DNA of 58,283 bases, taken from positions 1 through 58,283 of the IMG/VR virus record IMGVR_UViG_3300024302_000012; one strand, written 5' to 3'. Shown here in pieces: positions 3,272 through 58,283 of the stretch (position 1 is its first letter; every line of letters starts with the position of its first letter). The translations under genes were made by a program, and so were the position numbers. The stretch comes from a virus. The notes below the pieces were generated by a model, which was not told where the DNA came from, made no database searches, and saw only the letters and a list, made by a program, of their open reading frames with translations.

Positions 3272-3949
3272 ATGAATATATGTGAAAATTGCAAACAAGA
3301 GCATGATGGACAATATGGATCTGGTAGATTCTGTTCAGATAAATGTGCAAGAGGATTTAGCACTAAGGCAAAAAGAAAAAACATTAATGAAAAAGTATCT
3401 AGAAAATTAAAAATTAATAAACCAATCAGATTCTGTAAGATCTGCAATGTAGAAATTGGATCTAGAACGCAGCTTGGATATTGTCAAAAACACCTATATG
3501 AAAGTGAAGAATATAGATCTCTATTAAGAAAGCCCCATAAATCAGGGTCTGGTGGTTTGAGAACAGGTGGAGGAAGATCAAAGGTGTTTGAATATGATAG
3601 TAAATATGCTGGGTTAGTTAAGCTAAATAAACATGAAATTGAAGTTGCAAAAATATTTGACTCATTAGAGATATTATGAAATCGTAACTGAAAAGGTTTT
3701 AGATATGTCGATCTAGAAGGTAGAGATAGAAAATATTATCCCGATTTCTATATTCCAGAATTTGATTATTATGTCGAATATAAAGGATGAGTTAATGTAG
3801 TTTTAAATCATAAGATGAACAATGCTGTTGAGCTTAATGATTTTAAATTATTAATTATATATAGCGACGACAAGCGATACAGCCAGCTTGGACTATCGTT
3901 GTCAGAGCTTAAAAAATGTCCTCAAAAACTAATTAGAGGTATCGGTTAA
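3272..3949 (+). CDS. Homing endonuclease-like protein, PD-(D/E)xK type, with three TGA codons
   Basis: Read with TGA as Trp this is one 225-residue protein; under the standard code it stops at 3677. The N-terminus has Cys pairs (CENC, FCSDKC, FCKIC) typical of zinc fingers on homing enzymes. The C-terminus carries YYPDFYIPEF and YYVEYKG, the PD...ExK nuclease signature. TGAs at 3677, 3689 and 3788 give WNRNWKGF and YKGW, natural contexts for this fold. A TATATTTAT element and AGGAG precede the start. The last 15 bases overlap tRNA-Trp, so its stop lies in the tRNA D-arm. It is probably a mobile gene inserted beside that tRNA. Confidence 0.82.
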
Positions 3950-4006
3950 TTGGCAAACCAACGCTCTCCAAAAGCGTGACTGGGAGTTCGAGTCTCTCTA
4001 CCTCTG
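3935..4006 (+). tRNA. tRNA-Trp (CCA)
   Basis: Acceptor AGAGGTA/TACCTCT, D-stem GGTT/AACC, anticodon arm ACGCT, CTCCAAA, AGCGT, T-arm GGGAG/CTCTC. The anticodon CCA reads TGG; a TCA version would be needed to read TGA normally. Its 5' end overlaps the homing endonuclease gene. Confidence 0.93.
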
Positions 4007-4069
4007 CAATATGTAAGTCCTATTATGGATGGCACCAATCAATAGTCCGTTCATTCTAGGCAATAATTT

Positions 4070-8823: not shown

Positions 8824-8836
8824 GTTATTATTAAAT

Positions 8837-15039: not shown

Positions 15040-15054
15040 GAAAAGAGGTTACAG

Positions 15055-15473: not shown

Positions 15474-15691
15474 TGAAATTAGATCAAGCTCTTCGAATTG
15501 GAAAAGAATGTGGAATGGAAACTGTTCAGGAAGCATTGGCAAATATCCAAGGGCACGCAATGAATATGTTTCCATATAGTGAAATTGATGCCGAGCTTGT
15601 TGAATTGTATCTTGATTCAAAAGATAACTATTCTGGATCGGTTGACATGACCATCAATCAGTGCTATTATAAATGGAAGGATCTGAAATAA
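15473..15691 (+). CDS. Small hypothetical protein
   Basis: A 72-residue acidic helical protein (begins MKLDQALRIGKECG). Start and stop both overlap neighbours by one base. Function unknown. Confidence 0.8.
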   Translation: MKLDQALRIGKECGMETVQEALANIQGHAMNMFPYSEIDAELVELYLDSKDNYSGSVDMTINQCYYKWKDLK

Positions 15692-16101
15692 TGACTGATA
15701 AAAAAGACTTCAAGATATTTGTTCTTGAAGATAATCCAAAGAGAATGGAATGGTTTAACAACCATCTTGCCGATCAAATAAGAGCACACGCAAAACCATT
15801 TGAAGATTATAAGGATGTGAAAATTGAAATATTCAAAGCAAGCACAGTTCAAAATGCTGAATTGCTTTGGAATGAACACCAACCTTTTGATGCATATTTC
15901 TTAGATCATGATCTTGATGGAAAAGTAATGGTTGAAAGTACTGATCCGAATACTGGATATGCATTCAGTATGTTTCTATCTGATCAAGGAGTAAATGGTC
16001 TCAAGGAGCAGGTATTTATTCACTCACTAAATACAGTTGGTGCTGAGAATATGAAAGGTATATTCATCAAAGCCAAGCGCGTTCAAATATTTAATTTCTA
16101 G
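15691..16101 (+). CDS. cREC-type receiver-like domain protein (predicted cyclic-phosphate processing)
   Basis: A 136-residue single-domain protein. FVLEDNPKRMEWF (residues 10-22) and FDAYFLDHDLDG (about 68-79) match the degenerate receiver fold known as cREC, found with RNA-repair genes in phages and predicted to handle cyclic phosphates at broken RNA ends. The acidic cluster is kept. It lies five genes before the Pnkp/ligase pair, in line with that role. The assignment is from motif recall. Confidence 0.68.
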   Translation: MTDKKDFKIFVLEDNPKRMEWFNNHLADQIRAHAKPFEDYKDVKIEIFKASTVQNAELLWNEHQPFDAYFLDHDLDGKVMVESTDPNTGYAFSMFLSDQGVNGLKEQVFIHSLNTVGAENMKGIFIKAKRVQIFNF

Positions 16102-16109
16102 GAGGAATT

Positions 16110-16448
16110 ATGTCAGTAAATAATTGTGATTGCTGTTATTGTAGAAGAGATCGCGAAGTTTCTACTCTTATAGTTCCACCAACAGATTTCAATATGAATG
16201 ATCAAGCAACTGTTCAACTCACAGACTATGGAAGAAGTGTTCATAGACTTTGGTATGTAATTCTATTTGATTCTGTTGATGTGGATTTTGGTTTTGAAGA
16301 GAAATATTCTGCCTATGAAAAAGAGATCAAAGATGGATTTCTAACAACAGAGCTATGGAGAATCATGCAGATGTTTGGTACAAAGCACTATATGGGTAAT
16401 AAGAATTGCTTTGTTGACAATAAAATAAGTATCAAAAAGGGTATTTAA
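16110..16448 (+). CDS. Hypothetical protein, Cys-rich N-terminus
   Basis: A 112-residue protein opening MSVNNCDCCYCRRDRE, a dense Cys cluster that could bind metal. The rest is acidic and aromatic. AGGAGG precedes the start. It sits between the cREC-like and HAD genes. No family was recognised. Confidence 0.8.
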   Translation: MSVNNCDCCYCRRDREVSTLIVPPTDFNMNDQATVQLTDYGRSVHRLWYVILFDSVDVDFGFEEKYSAYEKEIKDGFLTTELWRIMQMFGTKHYMGNKNCFVDNKISIKKGI

Positions 16449-25172: not shown

Positions 25173-25530
25173 GGGGCCGACCTGGATTCGACGGGATGAT
25201 TTTTGACAATAAGTGCAAGTAGACAGAGTGAGTCTTAAAAACTAAACAACCAGAGATAACTGGCACAAACTACGCAATCGCAGCCTAAGGAATTAGGCAG
25301 CCGTTAGCTCCACGACTTCGATAATGGAGGTCTAACGTCGTTTTCGAATAGGTATTTATGCAACAAGTTTCACCGAATTGAAACTGGATCACTGCGGCCA
25401 TGAGTATACATGCCGATAAGATTTGTTGGAGTTCTAAATTCGTATTAATTGAAAGAAACCAACTAAACTTGTGAACGACTTGTTGAAGGAAGCTTTGCGG
25501 ACGGGAGTTCGATTCTCCCCGGCTCCACCA
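25173..25530 (+). ncRNA. ssrA: tmRNA (phage-encoded ssrA)
   Basis: The 5' end GGGGCCGACCTGGATTCGACG is the tmRNA hallmark. The 3' end has a T-arm (GGGAG, TTCGATT, CTCCC) and an acceptor strand pairing with GGGGCCG, including the G3-U70 pair for alanine charging. CCA is encoded. The tag frame ends at TAA 25286-25288 with codons for N-Y-A-I-A-A; extending upstream gives EITGTNYAIAA if it resumes at 25253. The C-terminus resembles the bacterial degradation tag YALAA. It would rescue stalled ribosomes and mark nascent proteins for proteolysis. Confidence 0.95.
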
Positions 25531-30887: not shown

Positions 30888-31322
30888 ATGCCAGTTTTAT
30901 ATAACTATACAGGATCAGATTCTGAAACAGTATTAATTACTGAAGAAAACATTGGGCTTGACTATCCATTTGGATTGACTGGTGCACCGTTTGGAGCTAC
31001 TACAACTTCGCTTGATAGAATTAGAGCAAACATTCGAATACTATTAAGAACAAATGTGGGTGAGAGACCAATGAAGCCTACATTTGGCGTACGATTAAAA
31101 GAGTTTATATTTGAACAAGTTGATGATGAAGACGAACAAAGAATTAAAGACAATATTGCAACAGCTGTTGAGATATGAATACCAGAGGTAACTCTAGATT
31201 CTATAGCTCTTGATCAATCTGCAAGCGAAAAAGAGCTTCAAATACTAGGTGTTCAGATAAAATTTCACCTTAAAGATAATATAGATGTTACCGCAGAAGA
31301 GATTGTGGTATTAACATCATAG
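30888..31322 (+). CDS. gp25-like baseplate wedge protein, one in-frame TGA
   Basis: Read with TGA as Trp this is 144 residues, the usual size for gp25/GPW. SLDRIRANIRILLRTNVGERPMKP and FGVRLKEFIFE are typical. TGA at 31176 gives EIWIPEV, where the family normally has Trp before its Pro-Arg motif. Under the standard code the protein is cut to 96 residues and loses its conserved C-terminal strand. TAG at 31320-31322 is the stop. It forms part of the baseplate wedge, next to gp6. Confidence 0.9.
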
Positions 31323-31332: not shown

Positions 31333-33234
31333 ATGGCAACGCCAGTAAAGAAAAATGTAAATTATATTGGAAGAGATTTCTCTGGTTTACGGGAAAACAT
31401 TTATACATTCATTAAGTCGTACTTTGGGAACACATACAAAGACTTCACAGATTCATCTCCAGGTGAAATGCTTATGGAAATACCTGCATACGTTGGAGAT
31501 GTTCTATCGTTCTATCAAGATAGCATGTTTAATGAGCTATTTGATCCTAAGCAACGGAAGAATGTATTGGCACGAGCTAAGCTATTTGGATATAAAAGTA
31601 CAGCTGCCATAAGTTCTATTACAGATGAAGATGTGTTTATCGTTGTTCCTGCAACTGGATCGACTGGAGCAAAGACTCCTGATCTCAGATACTGTCCAGT
31701 AATTAGTGCAGGTCTGCAAATTTCAACAAAGAGTCCGGCCCACATATTTGAAACTCAAGAGGATATTAATTTTGCAATAATTGATACTGAGCTTGATAGC
31801 AACAATGTAGAGGTAGTTATATTTGCCGTTGATGGCTCTGACATTCCTACTCATTTTTTAATTAGAAAAACAGTTCGTGTATTGTCTGGCGAAACAAAAA
31901 CTATGACCCAGACTGTCACATCACCACAAAAATATTTAAAAATACAGCTACCTTCAAAAACAGTTTCTGAAGTTATCTCAATTACAGATTCAGAAGGTAA
32001 TAAATGGTATCAGGTCGACTCATTGGCACAGGATACAGTATTCGTTGAGCAACAAAATACATCAGCCAATGATCCAGAATTGAGTGCGTATAGCGGTTCA
32101 GTTCCATATTTATTGAAATTGAAAAAAGTTCCTAAGAGATTTGAAACAGAGGTTGATGAAAATAACCTCACATATGTTCTATTTGGATCTGGAGTTCTTA
32201 CGTCTAATGATGAAGAGATTATCCCAAATCCAAATAATGTTGGTACTCCATTTGCAAACGTTGATAATAAATATGACTATGCAATCGATCCTGAAAATTT
32301 CTTAAAGACGACTACATTCGGTGAAGCTCCAGCAAATACAGTTTTAACAATAAGCTATAGAGACGGCGGAGGTCTAGCTACGAATGTCCCGGCAAAAGCT
32401 ATTACAGAAGTTGGAAATGCTACATGAACATTTTCAGTAACCGAATCAACACTGGACAGTCTTGCTCTCTCAGATGTAAAAAATTCGATTAGAGCATCAA
32501 ACCCAGGAAAATCAACAGGTGGCAGAACCGAGGAAGACATCAATAGTATTGCATTTAATGCCAAGGCAAACCTCAATGCTCAGAAGAGATGTGTAATCAA
32601 AGAGGATTATATTGTAAGATCATATTTACTACCGGCCAAGTTTGGATCGATTGCAAAAGTATATGTGGAAAAGGATGACCTAACAAGATCTGTGGGATCG
32701 GATGATATTAATCCTGCACTAGGAATTGTTCCAAGCCATGCAAATCCACTGGCAATCAATTTATTTTCATTGAGTTATGATTCGAATAAGAATCTTCAAG
32801 CATGTTCATATGCTCTCAAAAAGAACTTGAAGACATATCTATCACAATACAGGCTTCTTACAGATACTGTTAATATTGTTGATGGGACTATTGTAAACTT
32901 TAAAGTCTTATTTGAGATCATCGTTGATCCTCATGAGAATAAGCGAGCCATTTTGATCAATTGTGTAGACGCACTAAAGACATTTTTTAACATTGACAAT
33001 TGAAGCTTCAATCAGCCAATCGTATACTCTAAAGTATATCAAGTGTTGAATGATGTAGCCGGTGTTCAATCGGTGCCAAATGTTGATATTATTAATGTTA
33101 GCGGAGGAACACATTCATCAAAATCAGTAGATTTTCCAGCAATGACACAAAAAGGCATTATATATCCGATTAGAGATGTAAGTATTTTTGAATTAAAATA
33201 CCCAAATCAAGATATCATCGGTAGTGCAAGCTAA
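31333..33234 (+). CDS. gp6-like baseplate wedge protein (baseplate J type), two in-frame TGA
   Basis: A 633-residue protein when TGA (32425 and 33001) is Trp. The N-terminus NYIGRDFSGLRENIYTFIKS, then DSSPGEMLMEIPAYVGDVLSF, matches T4 gp6-like wedge proteins in which two copies join neighbouring wedges. TGA sites read ATWTFSV and NWSFNQP. AGGAG precedes the start. The length is like T4 gp6 (about 660). Confidence 0.9.
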
Positions 33235-33248: not shown

Positions 33249-34259
33249 ATGTATAAAAAATTCACAGCCAATAAAGACTCTTTTATTGACAAAAAGTTGG
33301 GCGAAAATAATTTCGGGAAGGATGAGCTACTTGAGGTAGGCAGGATTATTAGCAGTAGTGCTGTATATCCTAAGCGTTCTTTAATTTCATTTGACATTAG
33401 TGTGATTTCAGCATCTTTTGCTGCCGGATCAATTAACTCAGGAAGCAATTTCGAACTATTAGTACATTCAAATCAAGGTTCGACAATGTTACAAGATGCA
33501 TTCTATATTGATGCGTACATACTGTCATCCTCTTGACAAGAGGGAACTGGTTCTGTATCAGATAATAATGCATCAGGTTCTGTATCATGGATTTCATCAT
33601 CAACAGCAGCATGAGTGACAACAGGATCAGATTATTTGGCATCGCCCACGGCTTCACAATATTTTCCAACCTCATCAGGAGACTTAAGCCTAGATGTTAC
33701 AACAATTATTAGCCAATCAATCAATTCTGAATATGACAATTATGGATTTTTGATCAGGCTACGAGACGAATCTACGGTTCAGAATCAAGATCCAAAATAT
33801 TTCTATTCAAAGGATTCGTTCACAATATACGACCCAGTAATTTATGCCAAATGGAATGATGTAGCAACGACTGGCTCGGTAGCAGATTCATCGGCATCTG
33901 TTGAGTATGTAGTTACATTAAAAAATAAACAAGAAGTATATTCAATACAAGAGCAAGTATATTGCGAGCTTCATACAAGATTACAAGATCCAACACTGAC
34001 ATTTGATACAAGTGTAGGATCGCTATCATCAATTCCTTTGACAAATCTGGCTTATACAATTATAGACACTGCTACAAAAGAGACTGTAATTCCATTTAGT
34101 GCATACACAAGTTGCAGCTATGATAGTTCAAAAAATTATTTTAATATTGACATGGATGTATTACAGCCTAATCGAGCATATAGTTTAAAATTACAACATT
34201 CGCTTGCATCAAATGTTAAAAAATTCTACCATGTTCACTCATTTAGAACCACGGAGTAA
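33249..34259 (+). CDS. DNRLRE-like beta-sandwich tail protein, two in-frame TGA
   Basis: A 336-residue protein joining two frames across TGA at 33534 and 33612. The opening KDSFIDKKLGENNFGKDELL, then RSLISFDI, resembles DNRLRE-type surface domains. It is rich in Ser, Thr and Gly, as is usual for tail and fibre proteins. CGGGAG precedes the start. It probably sits on the baseplate or tail. The family call is tentative. Confidence 0.78.
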
Positions 34260-34261: not shown

Positions 34262-35581
34262 ATGAATAAAATCCTTATTAATAGATCGACTGTAAATACT
34301 CAGACAGTTAGAGCTCAGACTCAGGCCTTAGATAGTGAAGCGCTCAAAAAATCAATTATCAAAAAAGCCAAACTTGATATTAGTGAACTAGTATCAAAAG
34401 ATCCCATATTACCAAACAGTGGTACAGGTGGTAGAGCTCATGATGAAATTATAGCAGATCTATATGCCGAGTTTGAGGCAGATTTTGGCGAAATGTCAAA
34501 TGAAGAATTAGTAGACTTTTCTACACGAGTGAGATTAGAAATTGACACAATTGTAGAAAATGAAAGACTTGTTAAGAATAAGGGATTATTCATCGATACA
34601 GATCAGATATGTATGATCACAGGTAAGCAACCGTTTGCTGGAACTTCTTCTCCCCACAAGATCAGATTCCCAAACATATACAAAACCGTTGGCTCATATA
34701 ATTTAGATCAGAATATTTTTACACTCCACTGAATGCCAACGCTGAGACCAAATAGCACATTGAGCATTGTTAGGCATAAAGTTTTACATACTCCAGGGTA
34801 TATGGGATGAGATCTTGAATTGTTATCAAATATGAGATATAGATTTAATGCATGGATATGGGATAGAGACGATCAGAAAACTGAAATTATGTCTGTTACT
34901 TCTGATGCTAATCAACTTGTACAGCTAAATGAGTGAAATCATGTTACATTTGGATTTGACATAGGTGGCATTGTTATTCGCGTAGAAGACACTGTCAATA
35001 CTCAAGCTTATTCAAAGAGCATAGATCTATTCTATGGAATTAGATGAGATTTCTTAAGCGTGTGAGACTTTGATGCTCCACTGGGACCAACAGGATATAG
35101 CGAAGAAGGTCCTATCTTAGGAGATCTATATTGAGTCTATCCTCAGCTTATTTTTGGTGGAATTAACGTGAGCGATAATACTTCCGATATTGGTCGGTTG
35201 AGAAACTCATATACGACAGATGAAAGATCTATAGAGCCTCAACATCAAGTCATTGAACTAAATTCTGCACAAAGCCGATCAATTAAAAACGGATTAGATT
35301 CATATTACATTATAGCATTTAGAAGCTATATTGGTGTTCCATCAATAGAGGCTGCTGAAGATAGATTTGTTGACGACCTAAGTGAGAATAATTCATTAAG
35401 CATTGCAAGCGTACTAGATGTTCGCTTTGATAAAATACAAAATGGATCAATTAGAGATTATAGTGAAAGATCTAATCTAGTTGTTCTAACTGGTGACATG
35501 AAAATTAACATAGCTGCAGATCAACTAATCATTGCTGGCACGAAGAAGCCAAGTCTTGTTAGCATAGAAGGACCCTTTTAA
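34262..35581 (+). CDS. Late structural protein, six in-frame TGA
   Basis: A 439-residue protein once TGA at 34730, 34808, 34934, 35045, 35063 and 35132 are read as Trp. The TGA-rich part reads as a beta-type domain (RYRFNAWIWDRDDQK, then YGIRWDFLSVWDFD). TGG and TGA are used side by side. Its position in the baseplate block and its composition indicate a virion component; no family was recognised. Confidence 0.82.
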
Positions 35582-35583: not shown

Positions 35584-38500
35584 ATGATAAATCCAAACAC
35601 TGAAAATACATATGGAGTTGTTCCTGACGTAGAAGATGCTTCAACAGGAGGAACTGCAGAAGTATATATTACAGTATTTAAGCTAGATGGAACGTTTGTA
35701 TCTTCGAGAATCTTGCAGCCTGATGAATATATCTATTCTACTGGGGGTACTGGACTAGATATTAATCTAAATCTGCACATGTCTAGATATCTAAGCGTTG
35801 AGCTGCCTACTGATAACTATGATATTAAAATTTCATTTGAAAAAGAGATCAATAGTAATATTTTCATTAAAGACGTCTCACCATCAAAGACGGAAATGCG
35901 TGTCGGTCTATCGGTCGAGGAAGATACTCAGTGAGACTATTGGCTTAATTTTCCAGATAGTTTTTTAGCATCATTTGACAAGTTTGTCACTGCTAATGGC
36001 GAACACTTTAGAATCATCAATGTAACACCTGACTATTCTAAAGTTATTGAAATGCAAGGACCTATTGAGGAAAATATTTCTAATACTGAAGAATTAATTA
36101 GCTCTAAGCAGGCCCAAGTAAGTGGAGCGGCCAACATGCCTGCTGATATTGTTTTAGAATTTGTATCATCTATAGAAAATCTACAAACAAGCTTGGCACA
36201 GTATCAGGTAGATCTTAATAACATCATGCAATATGCTACGATGATTGTTAAATTAGAAAATCCTTATAAAGGACCGACCGAAGTTCCAATCAATAATTCT
36301 CACATCTATACAGAGCAATATGTTTCAGTATCATATCAAAATGTATATGTCTATTTTGAAGAACATGGACAGGGAGCAACAATTGAATTAACCGACAGAT
36401 CTACTAGAAATGATAGTACAGGAAATACAAATTGGTTCAACTATGAAGAGCTAGTGCTCAATGACAGTGGTTCGTTTGAACAAAACATATCATCATCAAA
36501 AGTATCTGGTGTTAAAAACCTAAACATCGACTATGAGGCTTTCCAAAATCATACATACTTTGGTCTGGCACAAGATAAGTTCGTCAATGCCTACACAAAG
36601 ATTAGAGATATTGAGGCATACAATGAAATCATCCAGACATTTCCTACATCTTCTGATGCACTTGTGACAAGTCAAAGCTATTCGGATAAAATCACTGAAA
36701 TCAAGAATGATTTTACTCAGTATGAAAGATATATGTATGAAAAATCAGGTAGCTATGCTTGACCAAAATTTTCATCCGGTACTTCATCTATAAACTATTC
36801 ATACTCATCATCACAGGTTCAAACATGGTACGGAATACAAGAGCTATCTGGATCTGTATTTGATAAAAACAACAAGTATTCGTTGATTAAAAATATTCCA
36901 GAAGTTATTGCTCTAGAAGATTCGGAGAGATACTTAAGATCTCTATTAGGATCATGAGGGGATTTCTTTGATTATATTAAATCATACATAGAGCAGTTCC
37001 AATACTTGTTCACATTTGACTATGACAAGATTAATTCAGTTCCAGATGAAATTCTACATCTATACTCTTCAGTATTTAATATAGAATTATTCTCTGGATA
37101 TGACGATGTAAGAGCTTCATCATATCTTCATGGTTCTAATCAAGCATCTGGATCGGCAGCTTTACGAGATGTCACACGAGAAAAATGGATTCGCTTATTC
37201 TCTTCAATGCCATACTTGAATAAAATTCGTGGAACAAGAAGATCAATTGATGCCATTTTAAACATCTATGGAATTCCTAGATCAATACTCACAATTAGAG
37301 AATTTGGAGGAAGCAAAACTTCTGGATCAGATTATGTTGATGAAGATGTCAACACTTATGCATTAAATTTCTGGGGTGGTGAAAGCATTGAGGTTCAAAA
37401 TGCAAACTATAGCCAGCTATCTGGATCTGACTTTACAATTGAAATGAGATATGCAACAACATCCTCTGGCGACCTACCGCTATTTGGAAATACTGGATTT
37501 AATGTAACACTTGAAGACAATGGAGATGCTGATGACTATGGATCTATAGTTTGTAACATCTCTGGATCGCCTACAATTTGAAATGCTAGTGGATCAGATG
37601 CTGTGCCATACTTCAATGGTGATTGGTTCAATATTATTCTTAGAAGATCTGGCTCTGAATTAACTCTTAAGACAAAATACTTTAAAGAGGATCAAATGTT
37701 CTACGATCTTTCTGGCTCGGCAACACTTAGTGCCGTATCTCAATCTTATTTGGATGCCGGTGTTTATGCTGGTAATGTTTTATTCTTTGGTGCTACCGGA
37801 TCTGTTGGAGCATACTCTGGTGCAATGCAAGAGGTAAGATTGTGGAGCTCATCATTAAGCGAACCTGCATTAACTCAGCATGCTTATGATTTTAGATCTG
37901 TAGCAATGATAAATCCTTTTGACATTGATGACAATCTTGTAGCACACTACAAACTAAATGATAATGTGACCGGATCGACAGCCAATGACTATTCATATCC
38001 ACCAGTTATTGATGTGACACTAAATGGATTTACTGGAAATCAATATAGCAATTTCACAAAATCTACAAAAACTAATTTGAACTATTTTATGACTAGCAAA
38101 TATTCGTCAAATCAAATCAATATTGGGCACACATCTGAATCTCAGACTGAAAATACAAATGTGATTGATATTATTTTCTCACCAGTCAAGGCAATCAATG
38201 AAGATATCATAAGCGATTTTGCCATGTATGACTTTAACGATGCCATTGGAGATCCATCTGATATGTATAATGAAAAATATCTAGATCTAGAATCGTGACG
38301 TGAGTTTTATTTTAAGAAGCTACCTAATAATTATGATTTCTATGCTTATATGAGATTTATTAGAAATTTTGATCAAAGCATTATGAAAATTGTAGAGACG
38401 GTAGTTCCAATGAGAGCAAAATTGTGAAGTGGAATTTTAATAGAGCAGCCTATTCTAGAAAGAACAAAATATAGATGGGAAAAGAGTTCTGTTGCAACAA

Positions 38501-38847
38501 ATCATAATTCAAGTTCATTTGATGTCACGACTGTCACAATATTATCTGAATCAATTGCAAACAATACATCACAGAGCATTGATATTACAACAACATTCCC
38601 AATTACGGGATCTGACAGATCTATGATGTCTGCCTCGGTAATTTATGAGGTAACTGGATCGCAACTAGGATCAAATAGTTTCTATTCATCGGCAGATAGC
38701 ACCGTATCTAGCTCTCAATATTTAACTGTATTTGAATTATTGTCAAATGCAACATATAAAGGCACTCAGAACACAGATGCCACCAATTATGATGGAGCTG
38801 TGGTACAAGTTAGCCAAAGTTCGGGTGCAATCATTAGAGTCAAATAA
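35584..38847 (+). CDS. Large baseplate protein with P2 gpI-like and LamG-like regions, six in-frame TGA
   Basis: A 1087-residue protein assembled across TGA at 35932, 36760, 36955, 37579, 38296 and 38425. The middle has a segment MPYLNKIRGTRRSIDAILNI that resembles P2 gpI-like tail proteins. Residues about 590-790 look like a concanavalin/LamG jelly roll (DWFNIILRRSGSELTL, EVRLWSSSL, LVAHYKLNDN). It may link baseplate and fibre and contact a surface. Under the standard code only fragments would be made. Confidence 0.8.
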
Positions 38848-43720: not shown

Positions 43721-43750
43721 ATTAATATGAAAAAACGAGGAAGAGATAGA

Positions 43751-44269
43751 GTGCGTAAACTAGGATTAGATATCAGTACTTCGGTGACGGGATGATCAGT
43801 TATAGAAAGCGATTTTATTCTTGACATGGGCTACATTACGTCTGCCAAAATTAAAGACCATTTTGAAAAGGCAAAATTCGTGCTTAATGAGCTTGAGCCT
43901 ATCATTGAAAAATGGAAACCGGAACAGATAAATGTTGAAGATAATCTCAGCGGATTTCAATCAGGTAGAACTAGCATGCAGATCATAATCAAGCTTGCAA
44001 AGATCAATGGAATTATCACATTCTATCTGAGTCAAATTCTAAAAATACCCACAGAAAATATTAACGCCTCAACAGCTAGGAAAAAAGTACTTGGAAAAGC
44101 ATACGATAGAAAGAACTTTTCCAACACAAAAGAGTTTGTACTATCTAAACTAGCAGATAAATTTGGTGATGAGTTTATAGACAAATTACCAAGGATGAAA
44201 AGAAAGACTGAAAAGCTTGCCAAGGAAGCATTTGACATTTGCGACTCAGTCATAATGGCGCTATACTAA
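43751..44269 (+). CDS. RuvC-like Holliday-junction resolvase, one in-frame TGA
   Basis: A 172-residue protein from GTG at 43751 (GAGGAAG upstream). LGLDISTSVTGWSVIES is the RuvC/A22-type first motif: Asp7 is a metal ligand and Trp15, encoded by TGA at 43793, is the conserved aromatic of TGW. NVEDNLSG supplies the Glu, and AFDICDSVIMAL the terminal Asp pair. It would cut branched recombination and packaging intermediates. Without recoding the first catalytic Asp is lost. Confidence 0.85.
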
Positions 44270-46146: not shown

Positions 46147-46386
46147 ATGAAAATTGATAAAAACGACATGTGGTCTGTCAAGGAGCATGGATTGATCGTG
46201 GGTTTCTGTTACTATGTTGAAATAGAGGAGCTTGAAAAGAAATTACAGAAATTTAAGCCCGAATTATACAACACTCATTATAAGCCTTTTCGTAAGAAAC
46301 TCAAGCAGAAAGGTGTAACACTATTCTTCGATAAACAGCATCAGTATGATGTTGAAAAGGAAATCCGCAAGTTCAAAAATGGTTAA
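46147..46386 (+). CDS. Small hypothetical protein
   Basis: A 79-residue basic protein (begins MKIDKNDMWSVKEHG). It abuts the homing endonuclease stop and overlaps the primase start by eight bases. No family was recognised. Confidence 0.78.
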   Translation: MKIDKNDMWSVKEHGLIVGFCYYVEIEELEKKLQKFKPELYNTHYKPFRKKLKQKGVTLFFDKQHQYDVEKEIRKFKNG

Positions 46387-47326
46387 CAATCCTGAAGCAC
46401 TCAAACGGATACTTACATTAACATATGGAGAAAGCGATGGCATATCGAAAAACGGTGACCTCGCTTTCTTCTGTCCATTTTGTAACCATCACAAGAAGAA
46501 GCTCAATGTAAATATCAACACAGGCTTCTGGCATTGCTGGGTTTGTCAAAATGGATCCAAGTCAATACTATCACTACTCAAGAAAACTGGCAAATCAGGA
46601 ATCATTCAGGAAGTTGTAAAGCTTCTTGATAAGCGTTCTCAAAGCTTTGTCAAATATGACGATGGTAAATCATCAGAGCAACAGATATTTCTACCCAAGG
46701 AATACAAATCCCTATCAAAACATTCACGATCACCAGAATTTAGACAAGCATGGCATTATCTGAAGTCAAGAAATTTTACTGAAACTCTTGTCAATCGATA
46801 CAATATTGGTTATTGCACTGAAGGTAAATATAGGAATCGCTTGATCATCCCATCTTACAGTGAGTCTGGTGTCGTTAATTATTTCGTTGCCCGAACATAT
46901 TATCTGGATGAAGAAATTAAGAAATATGACAATCCAGTAGCACCTAAGGACATTGTTCCATTTGAATTATATACATCATGGGCATTTCCAGTGATCCTCG
47001 TTGAAGGTGTATTCGATGCAATGAAGATAGACAGGAACGCAATACCAATCTTGGGTAATTCCATTGGTGATGCAATAATTGAAAAATTACTTAATGAGGG
47101 AGTAAGGCAGGTATATTTAGCTTTAGATGCTGATGCTATGAGGTTTGTTTATCGAGAGATTATGAAGCTTATTGAGGCCGGCATACAGGTCCAGATAGTA
47201 GAACTACCTTTGGACAAAGACCCAGGTGAGATGGAGCAGCATGAATTTCTTAAATTAATTGATTCAGCTGTAGCAACGACTGACCTGAAAACAAAAATGA
47301 GATTTAAAATGATGAGCAGAGGTTAG
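46379..47326 (+). CDS. DnaG-type DNA primase (T4 gp61-like)
   Basis: A 315-residue protein. FFCPFCNHHKKKLNVN, then HCWVC (residues about 25-53), form the zinc-binding domain that reads template start sites. VILVEGVFDAMKI and VYLALDADAM are the TOPRIM motifs, with the catalytic Glu and the Asp pair. It makes RNA primers for lagging-strand synthesis. ATG at 46379 overlaps the upstream gene, and its stop is one base from the nuclease gene. Confidence 0.9.
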   Translation: MVNNPEALKRILTLTYGESDGISKNGDLAFFCPFCNHHKKKLNVNINTGFWHCWVCQNGSKSILSLLKKTGKSGIIQEVVKLLDKRSQSFVKYDDGKSSEQQIFLPKEYKSLSKHSRSPEFRQAWHYLKSRNFTETLVNRYNIGYCTEGKYRNRLIIPSYSESGVVNYFVARTYYLDEEIKKYDNPVAPKDIVPFELYTSWAFPVILVEGVFDAMKIDRNAIPILGNSIGDAIIEKLLNEGVRQVYLALDADAMRFVYREIMKLIEAGIQVQIVELPLDKDPGEMEQHEFLKLIDSAVATTDLKTKMRFKMMSRG

Positions 47327-47327: not shown

Positions 47328-50300
47328 ATGAAATCACAAAGACAATGGAAAAGGGTAGCTCATATATCCGATATTCATATTAGAACTATTGCTAGACAAG
47401 GCGAATATAAAGCTGTATTTGAAAAGCTTTTTCTATCGTTGAGGAACGAAGCAGTTGATGCCGTTATCATTACCGGTGATACCGTCCATGGGAAGACTCA
47501 AATGTCACCAGAGCTTATAGAGATGCTATATTTCTTGTTTGAAAATCTTAATAAATTAGGCATCAAAATCATCATAATCCCGGGCAATCATGACGCATCC
47601 TTATCAAATCTATCAAGAACTGATGCACTTTCACCAGTTCTGATGCTATCCGAGTTTAAAAACATAGATTATTTGCGCGATACTGGAGTGTATAACTATG
47701 GAGATGTAGACATATATCACTATTCTGTATTCCAAGATAAATCTACATTCGATACAACAATACAAAATCCTGACAACACTAATATTGCATTATACCATGG
47801 GCCGATTAATGGATCTCAAAATGAATTTCAATTCACATTTGAATCTAATATGACAGCCGGATTTTTTAGACCATTTGATTTTACAATGCTAGGTGATATT
47901 CACATGAGGCAATGTCTTCAGGAAGAGAATCCCATCTGGTATGCTGGAAGTCTTATTCAGCAGAATTATGGTGAAGAGGTTGAGAAGGGATATCTAATTT
48001 GGGATCTCACAGACAAATCTGTAGAATTCATAAAGATTGAAAACGATAATGCCTTTCATACTCTATATGCTAAGAATAATATTCTGGAAGATAAGATCTT
48101 TCTTGCATCCAGTCCAAGGGTGAGACTATATTTCGATAAGCTTTCAATGTCAAGGCTTGAGGAAATCAAATCAGAAGTGGTGCAAAAATATGGTGCAATA
48201 GAGATTATTCCCCATGAAGTGGAGGGGCTTCTCGAAACAGATTTGAAAGATGAATTTGAAGATTCAGATTTCTATGATATTGCTGTGCAGAATAAGTTGA
48301 TTAAAGAATACCTGCGAACTCGATATCCATCATTAACAAAAAAAGAGACTGAAAAGATTATTGAAGTCAATTCTGATATTGAGCATATTGTTAAAGAGGA
48401 TCCTACATATTCAGATAAGAAATCTATGTCAAGATGGACTCTTGGACATATGCAATTTGATAACTTCTTCACATTTGGAGAAGACAATAGAATTAATTTC
48501 AAAGACCTGACTGGGATCACTGGAATCCTTGGTGCAAATGCTCAAGGAAAATCATCCATCTTAGAAACAATTACATTTGCCATATTTGGCACAACCTCAA
48601 AGCAGTTAAGTCTTGCTCAGTTGGTTAATAACCAAAAAGATAAGGCAAAGGTCTATATTACTTTGGAATCGGACGGTCAACTGTACGAAGTTGAACGCAA
48701 ACTAAAAGTCCATGAGAAGGCAGGGAAGAGGGGAGCGTCTCAGACGCTTACATTCAACAGAATTGATAAGGATCAGGGTGCTCTGCTAGAAGAATTGAAC
48801 GGTGACGATAAGAATGCGACTGAAAAGAACATTAGGGAGATATTCGGAACGTCTGACGACTTCTTAAATACAGCAATGATAGCACAGAACAACTGGGCAT
48901 CCTTCATTAAGAGCAAAGATACCAATCGGAAGAATATTTTGATGAGCTTCCTTGACCTTACAGCATTTGATAGGAAACACAAGGTTGCCAACAAGATTAA
49001 TAACGACAATATAACTGTATTGAAGGAGCTAAATAAGGACGATCTATCCTCTCAACTGGCTGGGACTAATAAGGAAATTGTTAAAGCCACAACAGGAATT
49101 AGTAATCGTAGGGGAGATGGAGCGGCATATAAAGTAATTGCTAGAGATATACAGAAGGAAAAAGATGCTCTACAGGCTCAGGTCCGTGCTGTTAAAGGGA
49201 AAGAGATTGATGTTCCCAATCAGGAAAATACAATTGAAGCCCACAAGACATCTATTAAAAAACTAGGTGTAGAAGCACAAGATCTTGATAAGCTACGTCG
49301 GACCAAACGAAGAGAATCTCTTGATATGGTAGATGAAATTTTCAATCTTGCAATCGAAAGCGAAACTGCTGCTGAGAAATTAGCAGAGGTGACCAAGACA
49401 AATGATGCTGATCGAACAAATGAATCATTGACCTGGGGCACTAAGGATATGCAATTCCGTCGGCTTGCTTCAACTCGACAAGAATCAATCATGGAATTTA
49501 CATCAATCATTATGGGACTTGAGTCTAAAATAATGCTCAAAGAGCAAGAGATTAAAGTAAATAAGAAAAATCAAGAATTGATTACTGATGATTTTGTTGA
49601 ACATGACGTTTGTTCTAAATGCATACTTGTAAAATTTGCCCTCGATGCTAGAGGTGGTGAAGAGAAATTAAACAATGAATTAGTAGCACTAAACAATGAG
49701 ATTATCAGCGAGACAGCTTTACGTGAGAAGGAACGATCAGCATTGGCACTAATAGAAGAAGATCATCAAAAAGCAAATGACATATTTGATGGAAGAATTG
49801 AGGAGCTTGATAAAGAAATAGAATCTGTAAGAGTCTTATCTGAATCAACTAGAAGATTGGTTGAGGAAAATCAATCCAATCAAGACACTCTCAGTGCTCA
49901 GGCAGAATTGCTCGAATCTAAGGTACAAACAAAGATTGCCGAGGCAAGAAGTATAGGTCAGCAGATCAAAGCCATACAGGCTGAAATTGCTCTATATAAA
50001 GAAAATCAAAAGACCATAGAACAGAATAAATCATTGATGTCATTGATTGAAACAAAGCAAAACAAAATTGATGAAGCCAATAAGTTCTATGAAATTGAAC
50101 ATGAGAAAGAAATGGAATTCACAAACAACTTGGCCATGTATAAAGAACGAAGAGACAATATCTCTGAAAAAATGGATCAAGTCAAGGAGAAGAGGATCAT
50201 TACAGATCGATATTCATATTACTTGGCAGCCGTCCATCGTAATGGAATCCCATCTGATATTATTAGTAATGCCCTTCATAAGGTCAATTTTGAAATATCA

Positions 50301-50693
50301 AGATTGCTAGATTCAGTGGTGAATTTCCAATTGAATATTGTAGATGACAATGATAAGATTGGTGTCTATCTGAAATATGTGGATGGAGAGTTAATTCCAG
50401 TGGAAGCAGCCTCCGGTATGGAATCTATTATGAGTGAGATTGCTATTCGTAATGCTCTGCTCAAGATATCAATGAAACCCAAACCAACACTAATTGCTAT
50501 TGATGAAGGATTCTCTGCATTGGATTCTGAAACACAAGCATCTCTACACAGCATGTTTACTGTATTAAGATCGGCATTCAGAAATACATTTATCATCAGT
50601 CATATCGAACAACTGAAAGACTATATGGATAATAATATTGATCTTAGGAAAGAAAATAACGAAACACATATAGGAAACATCAGCACACTATAA
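47328..50693 (+). CDS. Single-chain Mre11-Rad50-type nuclease (gp47-gp46 fusion)
   Basis: A 1121-residue protein combining both subunits of the recombination nuclease. Residues 1-360 are a Mre11/SbcD phosphoesterase (HISDIHIR, VIITGDTVHG, IIPGNHDAS, MLGDIHMR). The rest is Rad50/SbcC: Walker A GANAQGKSS (about 402), long coiled coils, a zinc hook CSKC (about 762), a signature-like ASGMESIM and Walker B LIAIDEGFSALD. T4 makes these as separate gp47 and gp46. It resects DNA ends for recombination-dependent replication. No TGA interrupts it and no stop lies between the halves. Confidence 0.93.
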   Translation: MKSQRQWKRVAHISDIHIRTIARQGEYKAVFEKLFLSLRNEAVDAVIITGDTVHGKTQMSPELIEMLYFLFENLNKLGIKIIIIPGNHDASLSNLSRTDALSPVLMLSEFKNIDYLRDTGVYNYGDVDIYHYSVFQDKSTFDTTIQNPDNTNIALYHGPINGSQNEFQFTFESNMTAGFFRPFDFTMLGDIHMRQCLQEENPIWYAGSLIQQNYGEEVEKGYLIWDLTDKSVEFIKIENDNAFHTLYAKNNILEDKIFLASSPRVRLYFDKLSMSRLEEIKSEVVQKYGAIEIIPHEVEGLLETDLKDEFEDSDFYDIAVQNKLIKEYLRTRYPSLTKKETEKIIEVNSDIEHIVKEDPTYSDKKSMSRWTLGHMQFDNFFTFGEDNRINFKDLTGITGILGANAQGKSSILETITFAIFGTTSKQLSLAQLVNNQKDKAKVYITLESDGQLYEVERKLKVHEKAGKRGASQTLTFNRIDKDQGALLEELNGDDKNATEKNIREIFGTSDDFLNTAMIAQNNWASFIKSKDTNRKNILMSFLDLTAFDRKHKVANKINNDNITVLKELNKDDLSSQLAGTNKEIVKATTGISNRRGDGAAYKVIARDIQKEKDALQAQVRAVKGKEIDVPNQENTIEAHKTSIKKLGVEAQDLDKLRRTKRRESLDMVDEIFNLAIESETAAEKLAEVTKTNDADRTNESLTWGTKDMQFRRLASTRQESIMEFTSIIMGLESKIMLKEQEIKVNKKNQELITDDFVEHDVCSKCILVKFALDARGGEEKLNNELVALNNEIISETALREKERSALALIEEDHQKANDIFDGRIEELDKEIESVRVLSESTRRLVEENQSNQDTLSAQAELLESKVQTKIAEARSIGQQIKAIQAEIALYKENQKTIEQNKSLMSLIETKQNKIDEANKFYEIEHEKEMEFTNNLAMYKERRDNISEKMDQVKEKRIITDRYSYYLAAVHRNGIPSDIISNALHKVNFEISRLLDSVVNFQLNIVDDNDKIGVYLKYVDGELIPVEAASGMESIMSEIAIRNALLKISMKPKPTLIAIDEGFSALDSETQASLHSMFTVLRSAFRNTFIISHIEQLKDYMDNNIDLRKENNETHIGNISTL

Positions 50694-50721: not shown

Positions 50722-50751
50722 ATAATATGAGTATAATCTAAGGAGATGATA

Positions 50752-53700
50752 GTGGGTACCACATTAACTGCATTAAACAAAGCTGATCTAAAACTAAACT
50801 TTGAAAAATCCCCCATTGATAAGATTCTTGATGAAAATCCATTTTCTAAATATTTTAGAATTTTTGGCGTCAAGGAAGAGTCATATGGTTTAGGGCGACA
50901 TTCGTTCATACTTTATGGATCAGAAGGATTAGTTAGAAATTCAGACATACAAATTGAAATTCTTGATGTCAATGGACAACCAATTGTTGTTCGTGCCGTA
51001 GATGCTGCGTCTAATAGTCCAGGGTGGAGAGTTTGATTTACAATCACAGAATTGCATACCGCCGGACCTGCTACAATATCAGTTGTTGGATCAGCAGATT
51101 TAAGAGAGTTTGACATCGAATCAGGTCTTCGAGGATCTGAATACAATGTAATGTGAAACCGAATCATTGCAGTTAATCCTACCCTACCAAATAGATCTGA
51201 CATTGTATTCCAAGAAGCACCAGATTTTACAGCCGTAGAAACAATCCAGACAGACGCAGATAATCCCTTAAAGAATAGAAGCTTTGCACAAATAGCATTT
51301 AATGATCTAGAGACATACTCTGGATTTGTTGAAGCCATTGATGTATTCTTACTTTCATCAGGCTCAGTGTCAGTTGACGCAGATGAGACGAAATGACAAA
51401 GTCTCGGAAAAGTTCCAGTGACAGGATCAAGCGTTGGCGTCAATCCTAATTCATTTAGTTTTAAAATTGCAGTTCCTACAGAGCGTGAAGATGACATTCT
51501 CACATTTAAGACGAGATTCTTAAATCCATTTGGCGAGTATGCTAAAGTTAATGAGTCTGGATCTGTCTATGAGGTAACATCTTCAGAAACAAATTTTGCT
51601 GGTGCCAATACATATGCACTTTCAGCTTCTATGGTCGGAGAAGGTCTTATTACTGGATCACTATACGCATCTAATGCTTTAGGTTCTGGAATTGAGATCG
51701 CTGGTAAAACATCAGGTTATATGCGTTCAGTTGGATATGAGGGATTCTTATCAGCCTCAATGAGCCTTGCTTCTCCCGGATTCATGATGTATTCAGGTGC
51801 TGTTTTACCAGCGTCAGGTGATTCATATGACGGAGTTGGTCTCGAACTTGTTTCAGACAATGGGTACTTAAGATTTAGTACAAATCCAAGCAGATTTGAA
51901 GTTGTGGCTGACTCATTCTTTGTTGGAGATTATGATTCTCAATATATTTCTGGATCAAGTGGTACGATTGTAATTAGCTCATCTGGATTCTATTTGGATC
52001 CAAATGGTAATGTGTTTATCTCGGGTTCAATCTCTGCCTCTGCTGGATATATTGGTGGATGACAAATTGTTACTGGAGCACTATATAATTTAACGGCATC
52101 TGACTATGTTGGGATGTCAACCGCTGGTGATACAAGATTTTTTGCTGGTGCATCATCATTAGCAAATTCAGGCTCTGGTGTTTTCAATGTGAAATCAACT
52201 GGAGAGATAACAGGATCTGATGTACTATTTACAGGCGGAAAAATTGCATCATTTAATCTAACCAACGATGCATTCTATACTTCAAACTTTTTCATTAGTA
52301 GTTCTGCAACAGGCAATGACTATTTTATAAGCTCGTCTAATTTTAATATAAAAGCAAGTGGAGACATCACTGGATCATCTGCACTATTTGATGGCAGCAT
52401 TTATGTAACTGGGACAGGTACAATTGGTGGATTTTCACTATTGGCTGACGAAATTAAATCTTCAAATGACTATTTACGATTAAAGTCTAGTGGTCAGATT
52501 ACTGGTTCAAATGTTCAATTCACAGGTGGAGATATCGGTGGTTGGACAATTGATTCTGGAAGTTTGTACAATGATTCAGAAACGACTAATATATATTTAA
52601 GCAGTGAAAATACTAATTGAGCTAACATTAGTGATAATACTGTATATCTTGGAAGAATTCAAGGGAATTATAATGCTCTTGCTATTAAAAAGGATGCTAC
52701 TCATTATATTCTTATGGGTCAAAATGATGCTGGTTCTGGATTTATTCAAGGATATAGTGGTAGTGCAATATTTGATTTACGAACAGATACTTCGTCTTCT
52801 ATTGCTGGTTGGACATTTGATGATTCATCTTTAGGTGGAACAAATCTTACAATGTATTCAAGTGGACTTATTGAGACAAATGATTTTGTAAGTGGATTAA
52901 AGGGATGGAGAATTGATCAGACAGGACTTGCAGAATTTGATAATGCTGTGATTAGAGGATCTCTATCAACCGTTTCATTCGATAAGCAAACTATCAATGC
53001 TGTTGGTGGACAATTATGAGTAGCTAACTCAACTGTAGTTAGTGGAAGTGCTGTTGGAATTTCTGATGTTACTATGAGTGTTGCAAACGCCAGTGGATTT
53101 GAGCCAACAGAATATATGATCGTCAAGAAAGTATCTGAAACTGGATTTAGTGAAGAGGTTGTAACAATAGTTAGTGCGTCGGTTGACAATCTAACAACTG
53201 GTGCAGGTCGACTTATGGTAACAAGAGGAACCAGTGGATCGGCGGCTGCATATGAAGAGGGACAGGTTCTTGTTTCAACAGGAAAATTAAACACGGGATA
53301 CATCAAGCTAAATGCAAGTCCGGCTGATACTTCAACTCCATATATAGACATTATTGAGCGAACTGGCTCTGCTTATGCTGATACAGATTTAAAAGCTAGA
53401 CTTGGAGATCTAAGTGGATTAGCAGTAGGGCTTGTGGGAACCGATCCTGGGTATGGATTATATTCACAAAATGTATTTTTAACTGGAACAATCAATGCTC
53501 CTCTAGGACATATTGGAGGATGGCAAATTGGTAGTGCTTTTATAAGCTCATCTGACAATTCTGTTCTTTTAAATTCATCAACTCCCAACATTGCATTAGG
53601 AACTAATTCTCATTTAATGAATATGACAACAGGCACTGGTGTCTACATGGATGGAGCCGGTAATTTTAGAGCTGGAATGCCTGAGGGATATAGAATATCA

Positions 53701-56700
53701 TTTGATGGTAGCAATTTAATATTAAGTTCATCAGACTTTTTCCTTGGTGGAGATGGACAATACATAAGTGGATCAGCTGGAACTTTAGAAATGAGTTCGA
53801 GCAAGTTTCATCTAGACACAACTGGAAATATTACAGGATCATCGGTCTATTTCACAGGAGGAGAAATAGCTGGATGGACATTTAATACTGGATCATTCTC
53901 AAAGAATGGTGTTAGACTAGAAGCTGAAACTGATGGTGGATTATATATTTCAGATGATTACAATAATGACTTAATTGCCGTAGCATCAAAATCAATGTAT
54001 ATGCTTGGATCAGCTACAGACGAAATGGTTAACGATTCATTCGAATATGATGTTGGAGGTCTATGAACAGGATCTGATGGTTATCATCTTGGAAATGCAT
54101 CCTCTCCATTGAGCGTTGTTAGTTGGTCGTTGGCAACTGTAGGTCCCGTATCTCACTCAATGACAAGACGACTTGGTGCTGGATATGAACTATATAATGC
54201 TGCTGTTGTGGGTGATAATACATTTGATATTATCTACCCAGGAACGCTTGCTCCAATTGCATCAACAAGCAGAAGTTTAGCCCAGACATCTGCATCATAT
54301 TTAACATCAAATCAATATGAACTATCTCAGATCGTTAGTGCTAGTTCTCAAGCTGCTCAAACATGAGTTGAGGGAAATGTTGTTTCACTGGCGTTCGTGG
54401 CAAAAATGTCACACTCTCTTGCTGGAGCAGGATATGATAGAGGATTTGAGCAACAAAAATATCGAGTTGAATATTGGTCTGGAAGCGCTTGGAATAAACT
54501 TATTCCAACAGGGACTAGCGAGTGGTCTAAATACAATATGGCCGTCAAATATACTTCAATCAAGGCTTCGGCAAAACTACCAGCTTCAACATCTAAGTTG
54601 CGGTTAAGGCTGTCCGGATCAATCAATCCAGACGTGACTCAAACATCTGAAGAATACAAATTGGATGAATGGTTTGCAAGCATTAGAAGCCTATTGAGCT
54701 TTGGATCTCTAACACCTGAGACTCCAATTTTATTACAAGATGGTACATCGACCGAAACTATCAAGGCATTAAGAGTTAAAGCCGCCGTTCTTGCATGAGA
54801 TAGTATTGCGAATGAAAATATTGTTGCGTACGTAGTTACAAAGACTAATCATCATGCGACATCAAGCTTATATATTAATGGTTCAGATATCATCACATCT
54901 GATACTCAGTTATTTGAAACAGTCGATAGTGGAAGTATGCTTGCATCGAGCCTGACAACTAGTGATAAACTTATTGACAAAAATGGAGATACAGTTACAA
55001 TTAGTACAATTAATGAGGTCCGTGGAGATTATCCTTTATTTAACCTCGTATTGGCACGAAGAGCAGAAGATGGCGAAATTGATGATAGCCTGTATTATTA
55101 TGCAGGAGCTACAACTCCCGTAAGATCAAATCACACCGGTTCGGCATCGGCTAGATATGAAGAGGAGCCATTAGAAGTAGAAACAACTTCATCAGATGAT
55201 TCTGCAAAATATCCCTATACAGAAATTTCATTTGACAACTTCAGATTAGTTCAAGATACTCCAAGAGTTGAATTATCAAAAGATGGATTTTTACTTTATC
55301 AGTCTGAAGTATCATATATTCAGATGTCACCAGACAATTTTATTATCCGTACTCCAAGTGATGGAGCTGCAGGTATTGGTAATGCTGTTTCATCAAATAT
55401 GTCAACTACAAACACAGCTGTACTTGGACAATTGGCTGCTCCATCTATTCAACCTTATGAAGCAGAGCCAACTGACATTGGCCAAACACCTTTTGCTGGA
55501 GGTATCAATGAATATTCAATGGGAAATCACCGACATGATTTAAACTTTGATGTACTGAATAATGTGGCTCAATCAGGATCGTTTGGAACTATTGATATTA
55601 CAAATCTTTCAGTAGGAAGCTTAAGCTTCACTGGTGGTGGTTCATTTGTTCTTACTGGATCACTTGCTGTAAGTTCTAGTAATGATTCATACTTTGTTGG
55701 TGGTGGTGGAATTGGTATTGGAACTACAACTTCAACATCAGATTTACATGTAAATGCAATAAGCAATGTTGGTTTTACATTACAACATGCATCAAGACCA
55801 ACAATAGCATTGACAGACGGTACAAATTATGCGTATATAGGATTAGATAGTGGTGGACAAATTATTACTGGTGCTGAAGATAATGATTTAGCAATCCGTT
55901 CACCTGATAAAATAAGGTTTGCAACGGGTGCATCGCTTTGAATGACAATTGATAATGTTGGTAGTGTAGGAATTGGAACAGCTACTCCTGGCAATCCTTT
56001 AGAAGTTTATCATGCAACAACAAATACAGTGACAAATTTTAAATCAGGAGATACTTTAACACAGATTAGTATTGAAGATACGAGTGATATGGCTTATTTT
56101 GGTACACAAAATAATTTAGCCTATTTTGGTTTAAGTTCTGGTGCTTCTATAAACAATGTAATTGTAAATACTTCTGGATATGTTGGAATTGGAACTGCAA
56201 ATCCATCAACGAATCTTCATGTAGAAGGTGACGCAATATTCACAGGAACAGTAACTGCACAAGAATTTCATGCCGAATTTGTATCAAGCTCAATTATCTA
56301 TGAAAGTGGTTCAACTAAGTTTGGTAATTCAAATGATGACATTCACGCATTTACAGGTTCAATGGGATTGACAGTTACATCCAGTGCAGCTTCAAGTATA
56401 TTTAATATCGTTAATGATAATTCTGAATATTTACGACTTGCATCAATTCGTTCAGCGGCCGGAACTGGACCAAATGACCAATTAATTCAATTCAGTGAAA
56501 ATTTAAGATTTACATATGCACCAAATGAACCTACACCAATGGTATTTTTCTCTGGTTCTGGTCATGTGGGAATTGGAACAACAGGCCCAAGTTCATTATT
56601 GCACTTATATGGTACTGGTCAACCTAAACTAACTATTCAACAATCAGACGATGTTAGTGGTGGAGCTACAATTGCTCTTACATCTTATGACGGTACACTT

Positions 56701-58283
56701 ACAATGGCACACTATAATGATGCCTATGCACCAGTCGCTACTTATGCTGGCAAATCAGTTTTACAAAGTAGTGATAATTTAGTATTATCAGCTTTCAATT
56801 CAAATCAATCAATAGAATTTTATGCTGGAAATAGAACAACTCCTAAGATGTATATTGCGGGTTCGACTGGTTATGTTGGTATAGGAACAACAAATCCAGG
56901 TGCAATGTTACATGTATATGGAACTGATGGTAAAATTAGAATTCAAGATACGAATGGAGCATCTTCATTAGATTTCTTCAATGTCGGAACTGGAGCTGGA
57001 AATGATGGCGTCGCATCTATTAATTTTAATAATACAAGTCAAACAGGACTTGCAAATATTCATGCTCGTACAGGAACAAGTGGAGCTACATTAGAGTTAG
57101 CATTTGACACTGGTATTGGTGCAGAAGCCATGAGAATTGATGAGGATGGAAAAGTTGGTATCGGAACTACGAATCCAACAACACAATTACATGTAGTTGG
57201 TAGCGGAGATTTAATATTAGATGATACTGGTGGAGGAGATGCATATATTGGATTATTTGCAACTGGTAGTGCAGTAGGGTATATTTTTGCTGATACTTCA
57301 CGAGACCAATTAATATTAAGACACGATAGCGTTGCTGATCAACTGGTTTTAGATAATGCTGGTAATGTTGGAATTGGAACAACTAACCCATCTTATGAAT
57401 TTGATCTGTATAAAGATCAAGATAGTCAGACATCACTTAGAGTTAATAATCCAAATGCGGGGACGAGTGCAGTATCTGAGATTATATTAACTTCCGATGA
57501 TGGACCTTCATTTTTTGTTAATCATGCAATTGCACGAACTGTAACACGATATAGTTCAATTGCAGTTGGTGGATATTCAGAAATTTTAGCTCACAATAAT
57601 ACAAATGGTTTATTGATTGGAACTGGAACAGCAAACACAAATATCATCTTTGGAAATAATTCTTTAGCTAGAATGACTATTGAACCAGATGGGAATGTTG
57701 GAATTGGAACAACAAATCCTACAGCACTATTAACATTACAATATCCAGGTGAAACTGGCGAATATTTTAGAGGTCATGGTACAGGTTCATTATCTGAAGC
57801 TAGATATTTAAGTATTGCAGCTTCAACTACTACATTCGCAGGTGATACACACACATTTGATGCAGTATCTAGTGGTGGTGAGATTGCATTTGCAACAACT
57901 GGTAATGAGAGAGTGAGAATAAATAGTTCAGGATATGTTGGAATAGGAACTGACACTCCATCTACTAAACTTGACGTATCTGGTTCAATAACAATATCAG
58001 AAACTACTGGACAATTACTACTTCCAGTATCAAATGATGCAGTTACTCCTACACTAGCTTTCGGTGCTGGTAATACTGGCTTTTATGCATCATCTGCAAA
58101 TGTTTTAAATGTAAGTATTAATGGAAGCGATGATTTTGATTTTTCAGCAAATAAATTTTCTGCTGATGATTCATCAGGTCCTGCAATATTAAATGAAGCA
58201 GCTTCAAGTACAAATCCAACTTTAACTCCCCATAAATTTGATTTAGATACAGGAATTGGTTTAGCTGGTGCTGATACAGGTTC
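50752..58283 (+). CDS. Giant tail-fibre protein, ten in-frame TGA, runs off the window
   Basis: At least 2510 residues, still open at the right edge. The start is GTG at 50752, six bases after AAGGAG; ATG at 50746 overlaps that site. TGA occurs at 51034, 51154, 51394, 52060, 52618, 53017, 54064, 54364, 54796 and 55939. The first half repeats GSSALF/GGW-type beta modules, as in trimeric fibres. From about 55.97 kb VGIGTxxPxxxLHV units recur at least eight times (near 56.18, 56.57, 56.88, 57.16, 57.37, 57.70 and 57.94 kb). It probably recognises the host surface; a C-terminal self-cleaving chaperone may lie beyond the window. Confidence 0.88.

Follow-up and report, generated by a model that had tools for sequence, protein, structure and literature searches.

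UGA as a probable tryptophan codon, concentrated in the structural genes of a contractile-tailed phage related to Microcystis phage Mel-JY01

The window analyzed here, the whole stretch of 58,283 nucleotides from the IMG/VR virus record IMGVR_UViG_3300024302_000012, ends in a long tail-fibre-like gene. With TGA taken as a sense codon its frame 50746-58281 stays open up to the window end (no TAA or TAG), which raises the question of what TGA encodes in this virus. The following positions of the fibre are concerned:

50746..58281, plus strand: tail-fibre-like protein, at least 2511 codons, cut off at the end of the window; 10 TGA and 11 TGG in frame
51154..51156, plus strand: TGA in the N-terminal part of the fibre, Trp in 19/25 relatives
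52060..52062, plus strand: TGA of the fibre module IGG-x-QI, reading IGG-TGA-QI, Phe in 4/4 relatives
52543..52545, plus strand: TGG at the equivalent module position of the fibre, IGGWTI
53521..53523, plus strand: TGG at the equivalent module position of the fibre, IGGWQI

The original prediction was that these repeats reveal the meaning of TGA, with TGA in one copy standing where IGGWQI and IGGWTI have TGG, and all three codons were indeed found at their places. Using the regular expression [IL][GAK]G(.)[TQRSK][ILF] we located seven copies of the module, five of which carry Trp (TGG; 52543, 52810, 52906, 53521 and 53875) at the variable position, one Phe (52432) and one the TGA (52060). The position seems to be aromatic and mostly Trp, which fits TGA as a Trp codon in a small sample of seven copies; with this sample size and the Phe of the relatives at 52060, the repeats point to an aromatic residue and do not settle the meaning of the codon by themselves.

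For a column test against relatives the late genes were translated with X at each TGA and aligned to relatives from viral contigs and named phages, with own-strain contigs and tRNA loci left out; the final database comprised 261 loci. The late genes included those of contig G001 (105,677 bases), which matches window positions 613-39732 at 99.99% and adds about 66 kb upstream. A column was testable with at least 15 aligned relatives, as is the case for 25 of the 65 TGA codons that the queried genes contain, the other 40 having too few relatives. The virus belongs to the tailed phages and its tail is contractile (sheath, tube, gp25 and a gp6-like baseplate protein); the genes in the window that carry TGA codons of interest are:

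30888..31322, plus strand: baseplate wedge gp25 homologue, TGA at 31176
31333..33234, plus strand: gp6-like baseplate wedge protein, TGA at 33001 and 32425 (the latter in a variable column)
33249..34259, plus strand: late protein without PHROG match, TGA at 33534 and 33612 (the latter variable)
34262-35581 and 35584-38847, plus strand: two late genes, six in-frame TGA each, no PHROG match
43727..44269, plus strand: RuvC-like resolvase, TGA at 43793

Among the 25 columns with at least 75% Trp in the relatives the phage codon is TGG in 18, TGA in six and TTA in one, and at a cut-off of at least 60% we counted 19 TGG, seven TGA and seven other codons. Expressed as the share falling into columns with at least 75% Trp, this corresponds to 6/25 for TGA and 18/40 for TGG, compared to 0/269 for the Tyr codons. 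The gp25 codon at 31176, which had been assigned to a Trp position, stands where 57 of 66 relatives have Trp, and similar values were obtained for 33001 in the gp6-like protein (71/84), for 33534 (68/77) and for the G001 sites 1578 (27/30) and 2343 (33/33); the TGA at G001 6103 in the sheath (57/82) lies just under the 75% cut. The proposal that TGA encodes Trp, which had relied on three sites, is thus borne out by a wider test.

The original prediction omits the main pattern, which is the concentration of TGA in structural genes. In the late block 58 of 144 Trp codons are TGA (58 TGA and 86 TGG in 29 genes, with frames free of TAA and TAG), compared to nine of 301 in the middle region (9 TGA and 292 TGG in 82 genes; Fisher p = 1.3e-23). 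The same holds for genes with names from PHROGs or Pfam, as six named structural genes have 9 TGA and 15 TGG and 19 named DNA and nucleotide genes 2 and 99 (p = 3.7e-6). The recoded codon is therefore enriched in the structural (late) genes, and replication and nucleotide-metabolism genes use nearly exclusively UGG and have UAA or UAG as their stops. Four genes were kept outside the late/middle comparison, namely G001 14453-15799 (0 TGA, 1 TGG), G001 15809-16219 (2 TGA, 2 TGG) and the first two of the following list, which provide a clear contrast by being free of TGA amid a TGA-rich block:

46346..47326, plus strand: DnaG-type primase within the late block, 0 TGA and 4 TGG
47328..50693, plus strand: SbcCD-like nuclease within the late block, 0 TGA and 6 TGG
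3272..3949, plus strand: ORF in the tRNA array, 3 in-frame TGA and no TGG, its end lying inside the tRNA-Trp gene

The nine middle TGA codons are spread over seven of the 82 genes, among them one resembling a glycosyltransferase gene as well as the ORF 3272-3949, which gave no Pfam match and has a C-terminal motif that looks nuclease-like. The middle region also contains a groEL-like chaperonin gene (L175:2948-4582).

The label late is an inference from what the genes do and where they lie, and no late-promoter motif separating the two gene sets was found: neither the T4-type late promoter TATAAATA nor an enrichment of 7-mers gave anything convincing (best 7-mers p = 0.005, uncorrected). The base following TGA (G 24, A 19, T 8, C 7) is near the codon background and so gives no sign of a readthrough context. 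Between near-identical contigs from the same collection no TGA/TGG polymorphism was seen at any codon compared. Taking TGA as sense increases the mean ORF length 1.34- to 3.15-fold in own-strain stretches with late genes; the best stretches of the relatives reach 1.26, 1.19 and 1.16, and the median of all 126 loci, counting those of the own strain, is 1.00.

The 112 ATG-started ORFs of the middle region end in TAA (83), TAG (22) or TGA (7), and three of the last (starts 41762, 43110 and 69217) clearly continue as longer proteins. Two of the remaining four have a TAA two or three codons on, one falls within the tRNA array, and the last (53763) continues into a hydrophobic stretch, so none of the seven shows a clear need for TGA as stop. 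Among the listed gene ends TGA makes up 13/43 in Mel-JY01 and 2/62 in Flavobacterium phage immuto.

A host which itself reads UGA as Trp and is merely followed by the phage would agree with this lack of a clear use as stop, and going by the part of PMC11210395 used here, the database isolates of table-4 phages mostly have Mycoplasma or Spiroplasma as their hosts. We nevertheless regard it as unlikely, as TGA is nearly missing from the 82 middle genes and such a host gives no reason for that. The same scarcity could be an indirect pointer to a host with the standard code. Of the genes of this phage 30 of 42 have a Shine-Dalgarno-like motif ahead of them, compared to one of 40 in immuto, which argues against a Bacteroidota host.

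Very unlikely is a meaning of TGA as Tyr, or as mixed aromatic residues. Two conserved Tyr columns do hold TGA, namely 43793 in RuvC (Tyr in 20/20 relatives) and 39143 (56/74), and in the log-odds summed over 18 TGA columns Tyr (0.0) is just 2.7 nats under Trp (+2.7). The summed score parts Trp from Gly and Cys and fails to part it from Tyr; it was therefore dropped as the sole test and replaced by the codon counts in conserved columns. It is because of these counts, with no Tyr codon in a column of at least 75% Trp, and not because of the summed score, that we prefer Trp. In the family alignments that the original prediction had proposed, gp25 supports Trp, and the RuvC codon, thought to fill the aromatic position of a TGW motif, is at an aromatic position as claimed and gives no pointer to Trp. 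Other conserved columns without Trp that hold TGA are dominated by Asn (29/31, G001 1704), Pro (28/32, G001 3307) and Ala (18/24, 51034), and TGG likewise occurs in conserved Phe, Asn, Arg and Lys columns, one each. In total 5/11 conserved columns with TGA are non-Trp, compared to 4/22 with TGG; substitution in a divergent phage with about 40% identity to its relatives may suffice as an explanation, but TGA is found in such columns more often than TGG.

Glycine (code 25), as found in Gracilibacteria and their phages, is genuine in those hosts and some of their phages, as the part of PMC10746230 drawn on here describes. For the present phage it is extremely improbable with a summed log-odds of -29.3, compared to +2.7 for Trp, and not one Gly-dominated column holding TGA in the column counts against the relatives. 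Hardly any weight can be given to selenocysteine or cysteine either. TGA is the Sec codon and the phage carries a tRNA-Cys(GCA), but Cys reaches only -32.1 and no Cys-dominated column holds TGA, a tRNA-Sec was not found at default settings in the window and G001, the 'SeC' call of a relaxed scan is the complement of a tRNA-Ser(TGA), and 58 TGA sites, spread over 29 genes, are far more than such a reading would allow. This agrees with the earlier view that Gly and selenocysteine are improbable. Fragmented or decayed late genes, or sequencing errors, can practically be dismissed, because either would also give TAA and TAG, which are absent from the 29 late genes with their 58 in-frame TGA, near-identical contigs carry identical TGA codons, and the alignments to relatives run on past TGA in gp25, gp6 and the sheath. 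As judged from codons and alignments, the analysis confirms TGA as a Trp codon in this phage and excludes Gly and Cys or Sec.

As one explanation for all of this we consider it highly probable that UGA encodes Trp and that nearly all UGA codons are placed in structural (late) genes, whose timing would then depend on a UGA-reading tRNA-Trp in competition with RF2. Early in infection the RF2 of the host would still terminate at UGA, and only UGA-free genes would be made; later the UGA-reading tRNA-Trp would outcompete RF2 and full-length tail proteins could be formed, so that these proteins might be delayed or gated. Less certain is the identity of the reader, which could be the tRNA-Trp(CCA) of the phage with its altered core, or else a UCA tRNA, encoded in the head segment outside the covered sequence or provided by the host. 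Two RNA genes of the window are relevant in this context:

3935..4007, plus strand: tRNA-Trp, anticodon CCA, with C9, D-stem GGTT/AACC, four-base variable loop GACT and an intact anticodon stem of five base pairs, candidate UGA reader
25173..25530, plus strand: tmRNA gene, tag GTNYAIAA

The window and G001 encode tRNAs for all 20 amino acids with this single tRNA-Trp. A tRNA with a UCA anticodon was not found in the window and G001, intron-permissive settings included, and neither were the release factor family PF00472 or the TrpRS family PF00579, with the head-gene segment lying outside this covered sequence. Perhaps about 30 kb of head genes would belong to that segment by analogy to Mel-JY01, in which capsid and head genes are located directly ahead of the sheath. 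The window has 24 tRNA genes (positions 1-9000), and the tRNAs of the window and G001 together include two GTA (Tyr) tRNAs, one of 84 and one of 72 bases; the spacing and sequence of the tRNA array differ between the near-identical strains (window 1-612 and G001 65700-66558, about 79% identity in pieces).

A C at position 9 was present in none of 59 bacterial tRNA-Trp, which represent part of the pattern matches (L199 is numbered one base off; L212 and L256 were dropped for having no tRNA-Trp). Reading of UGA is reported for tRNA-Trp with the exchange A9C or G24A, and in the part of PMC13092985 considered here the UGA-reading CCA variants are the Hirsh G24A, A9C and a 4-bp anticodon stem. C at position 9 and the CCA anticodon are shared with the phage tRNA, which in contrast has G:C at 11:24, a five-pair anticodon stem and a wholly different core; because of this core, A9C in E. 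coli can only serve as an analogy. The same type of tRNA-Trp occurs in phAss-1 (OQ749652; part of PMC10607447), a TAG-recoded gut phage; the two tRNAs are 85.5% identical and agree in C9, the D-stem and the GACT variable loop. It was also found in 11 other viral contigs, each time with the CCA anticodon, while L259 and L261 are two more matches from the own strain. Unlike the phage described here, phAss-1 has TAG as its recoded codon together with a CTA suppressor, and 12 of the 45 genes looked at have TGA as their stop. Of the 11 contigs, nine were sampled over 33-140 kb and two are short, and none gains from TGA as the late genes of this phage do, with borderline gains in G128 (2/4 stretches; ratios 1.26 and 1.21) and G133 (1/4; 1.27). 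The C9 type was thus rejected as a marker of UGA recoding, being also present in phAss-1 with its TGA stops and in 11 contigs without clear UGA recoding. Two observations on TAG were made on other contigs. G137 (L271/L272; 124,327 bases) has a tRNA with CTA anticodon, the same type of tRNA-Trp and a frame of 147 residues with a match to the release-factor family. G130 (L277, L295; 144,334 bases), one of the 11 contigs, has a CTA tRNA and shows an increase in mean ORF length from 214 to 522 and from 226 to 441 with TAG as sense in 2/7 stretches, and is probably a TAG-recoded phage.

We regard the phage tRNA-Trp(CCA) as a possible, still tentative UGA reader. Rather doubtful is the fuller model in which UGA is read by this tRNA via its altered core (C9, G11:C24 and four-base variable loop), the late switch is set by the amount of tRNA and the tmRNA clears ribosomes that have run past host UGA stops. 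The phage tmRNA could relieve stalling from such readthrough; of eight related records, LR756508 and contig G005 likewise gave tmRNA matches over the cut-off. If the CCA tRNA is indeed the reader, this would help to explain recoded phages without a visible suppressor.

The nearest named phage for both the gp6-like protein (40.3%) and the sheath (39.4%, both tblastn) is Mel-JY01, and the homologous baseplate wedge and sheath place the phage with the contractile-tail phages related to Mel-JY01 and immuto; among genome contigs two MAG contigs are the only relatives, and they carry no information on the host. Literature searches gave no title on UGA recoding for a phage like Mel-JY01, nor any paper that names Mel-JY01. 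It is a real phage with UGA as Trp and a further example of an established phenomenon, as the reassignment of TGA to Trp, its bias towards late genes and the missing suppressor in some genomes are in print (parts of PMC7886860, PMC11210395 and PMC10746230). With it a lineage with contractile tails joins a phenomenon for which the crAss-like phages are the best-described case. There is also a practical side: standard gene calling fragments the tail genes, which are restored with TGA as Trp.

As described in the relevant part of PMC7886860, which reports both a preference of recoded stops for late genes and cases of recoding with no suppressor in sight, crAss-like phages also have TGA as Trp mostly in late genes, and a suppressor tRNA is not always found. 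They differ in that many of their genomes do carry suppressors, and the phage here has T4-like contractile-tail genes and is kin of Mel-JY01 and immuto. The code-4 phages of Borges 2022, as cited in parts of PMC10746230 and PMC10879173, have RF1, TrpRS and a UCA suppressor; they share TGA as Trp in structural genes (via PMC10746230), unlike the covered sequence of the present phage, where the release-factor family, the TrpRS family and a UCA tRNA were not found. Such a tRNA is not obligatory in TGA-to-Trp phages, as according to the part of PMC11210395 used here only 11 of 73 table-4 phages, which likewise read TGA as Trp, have a Sup-TCA tRNA. From INPHARED 22 of 27 of them infect Mycoplasma or Spiroplasma, whereas the phage described here avoids TGA in its middle genes.
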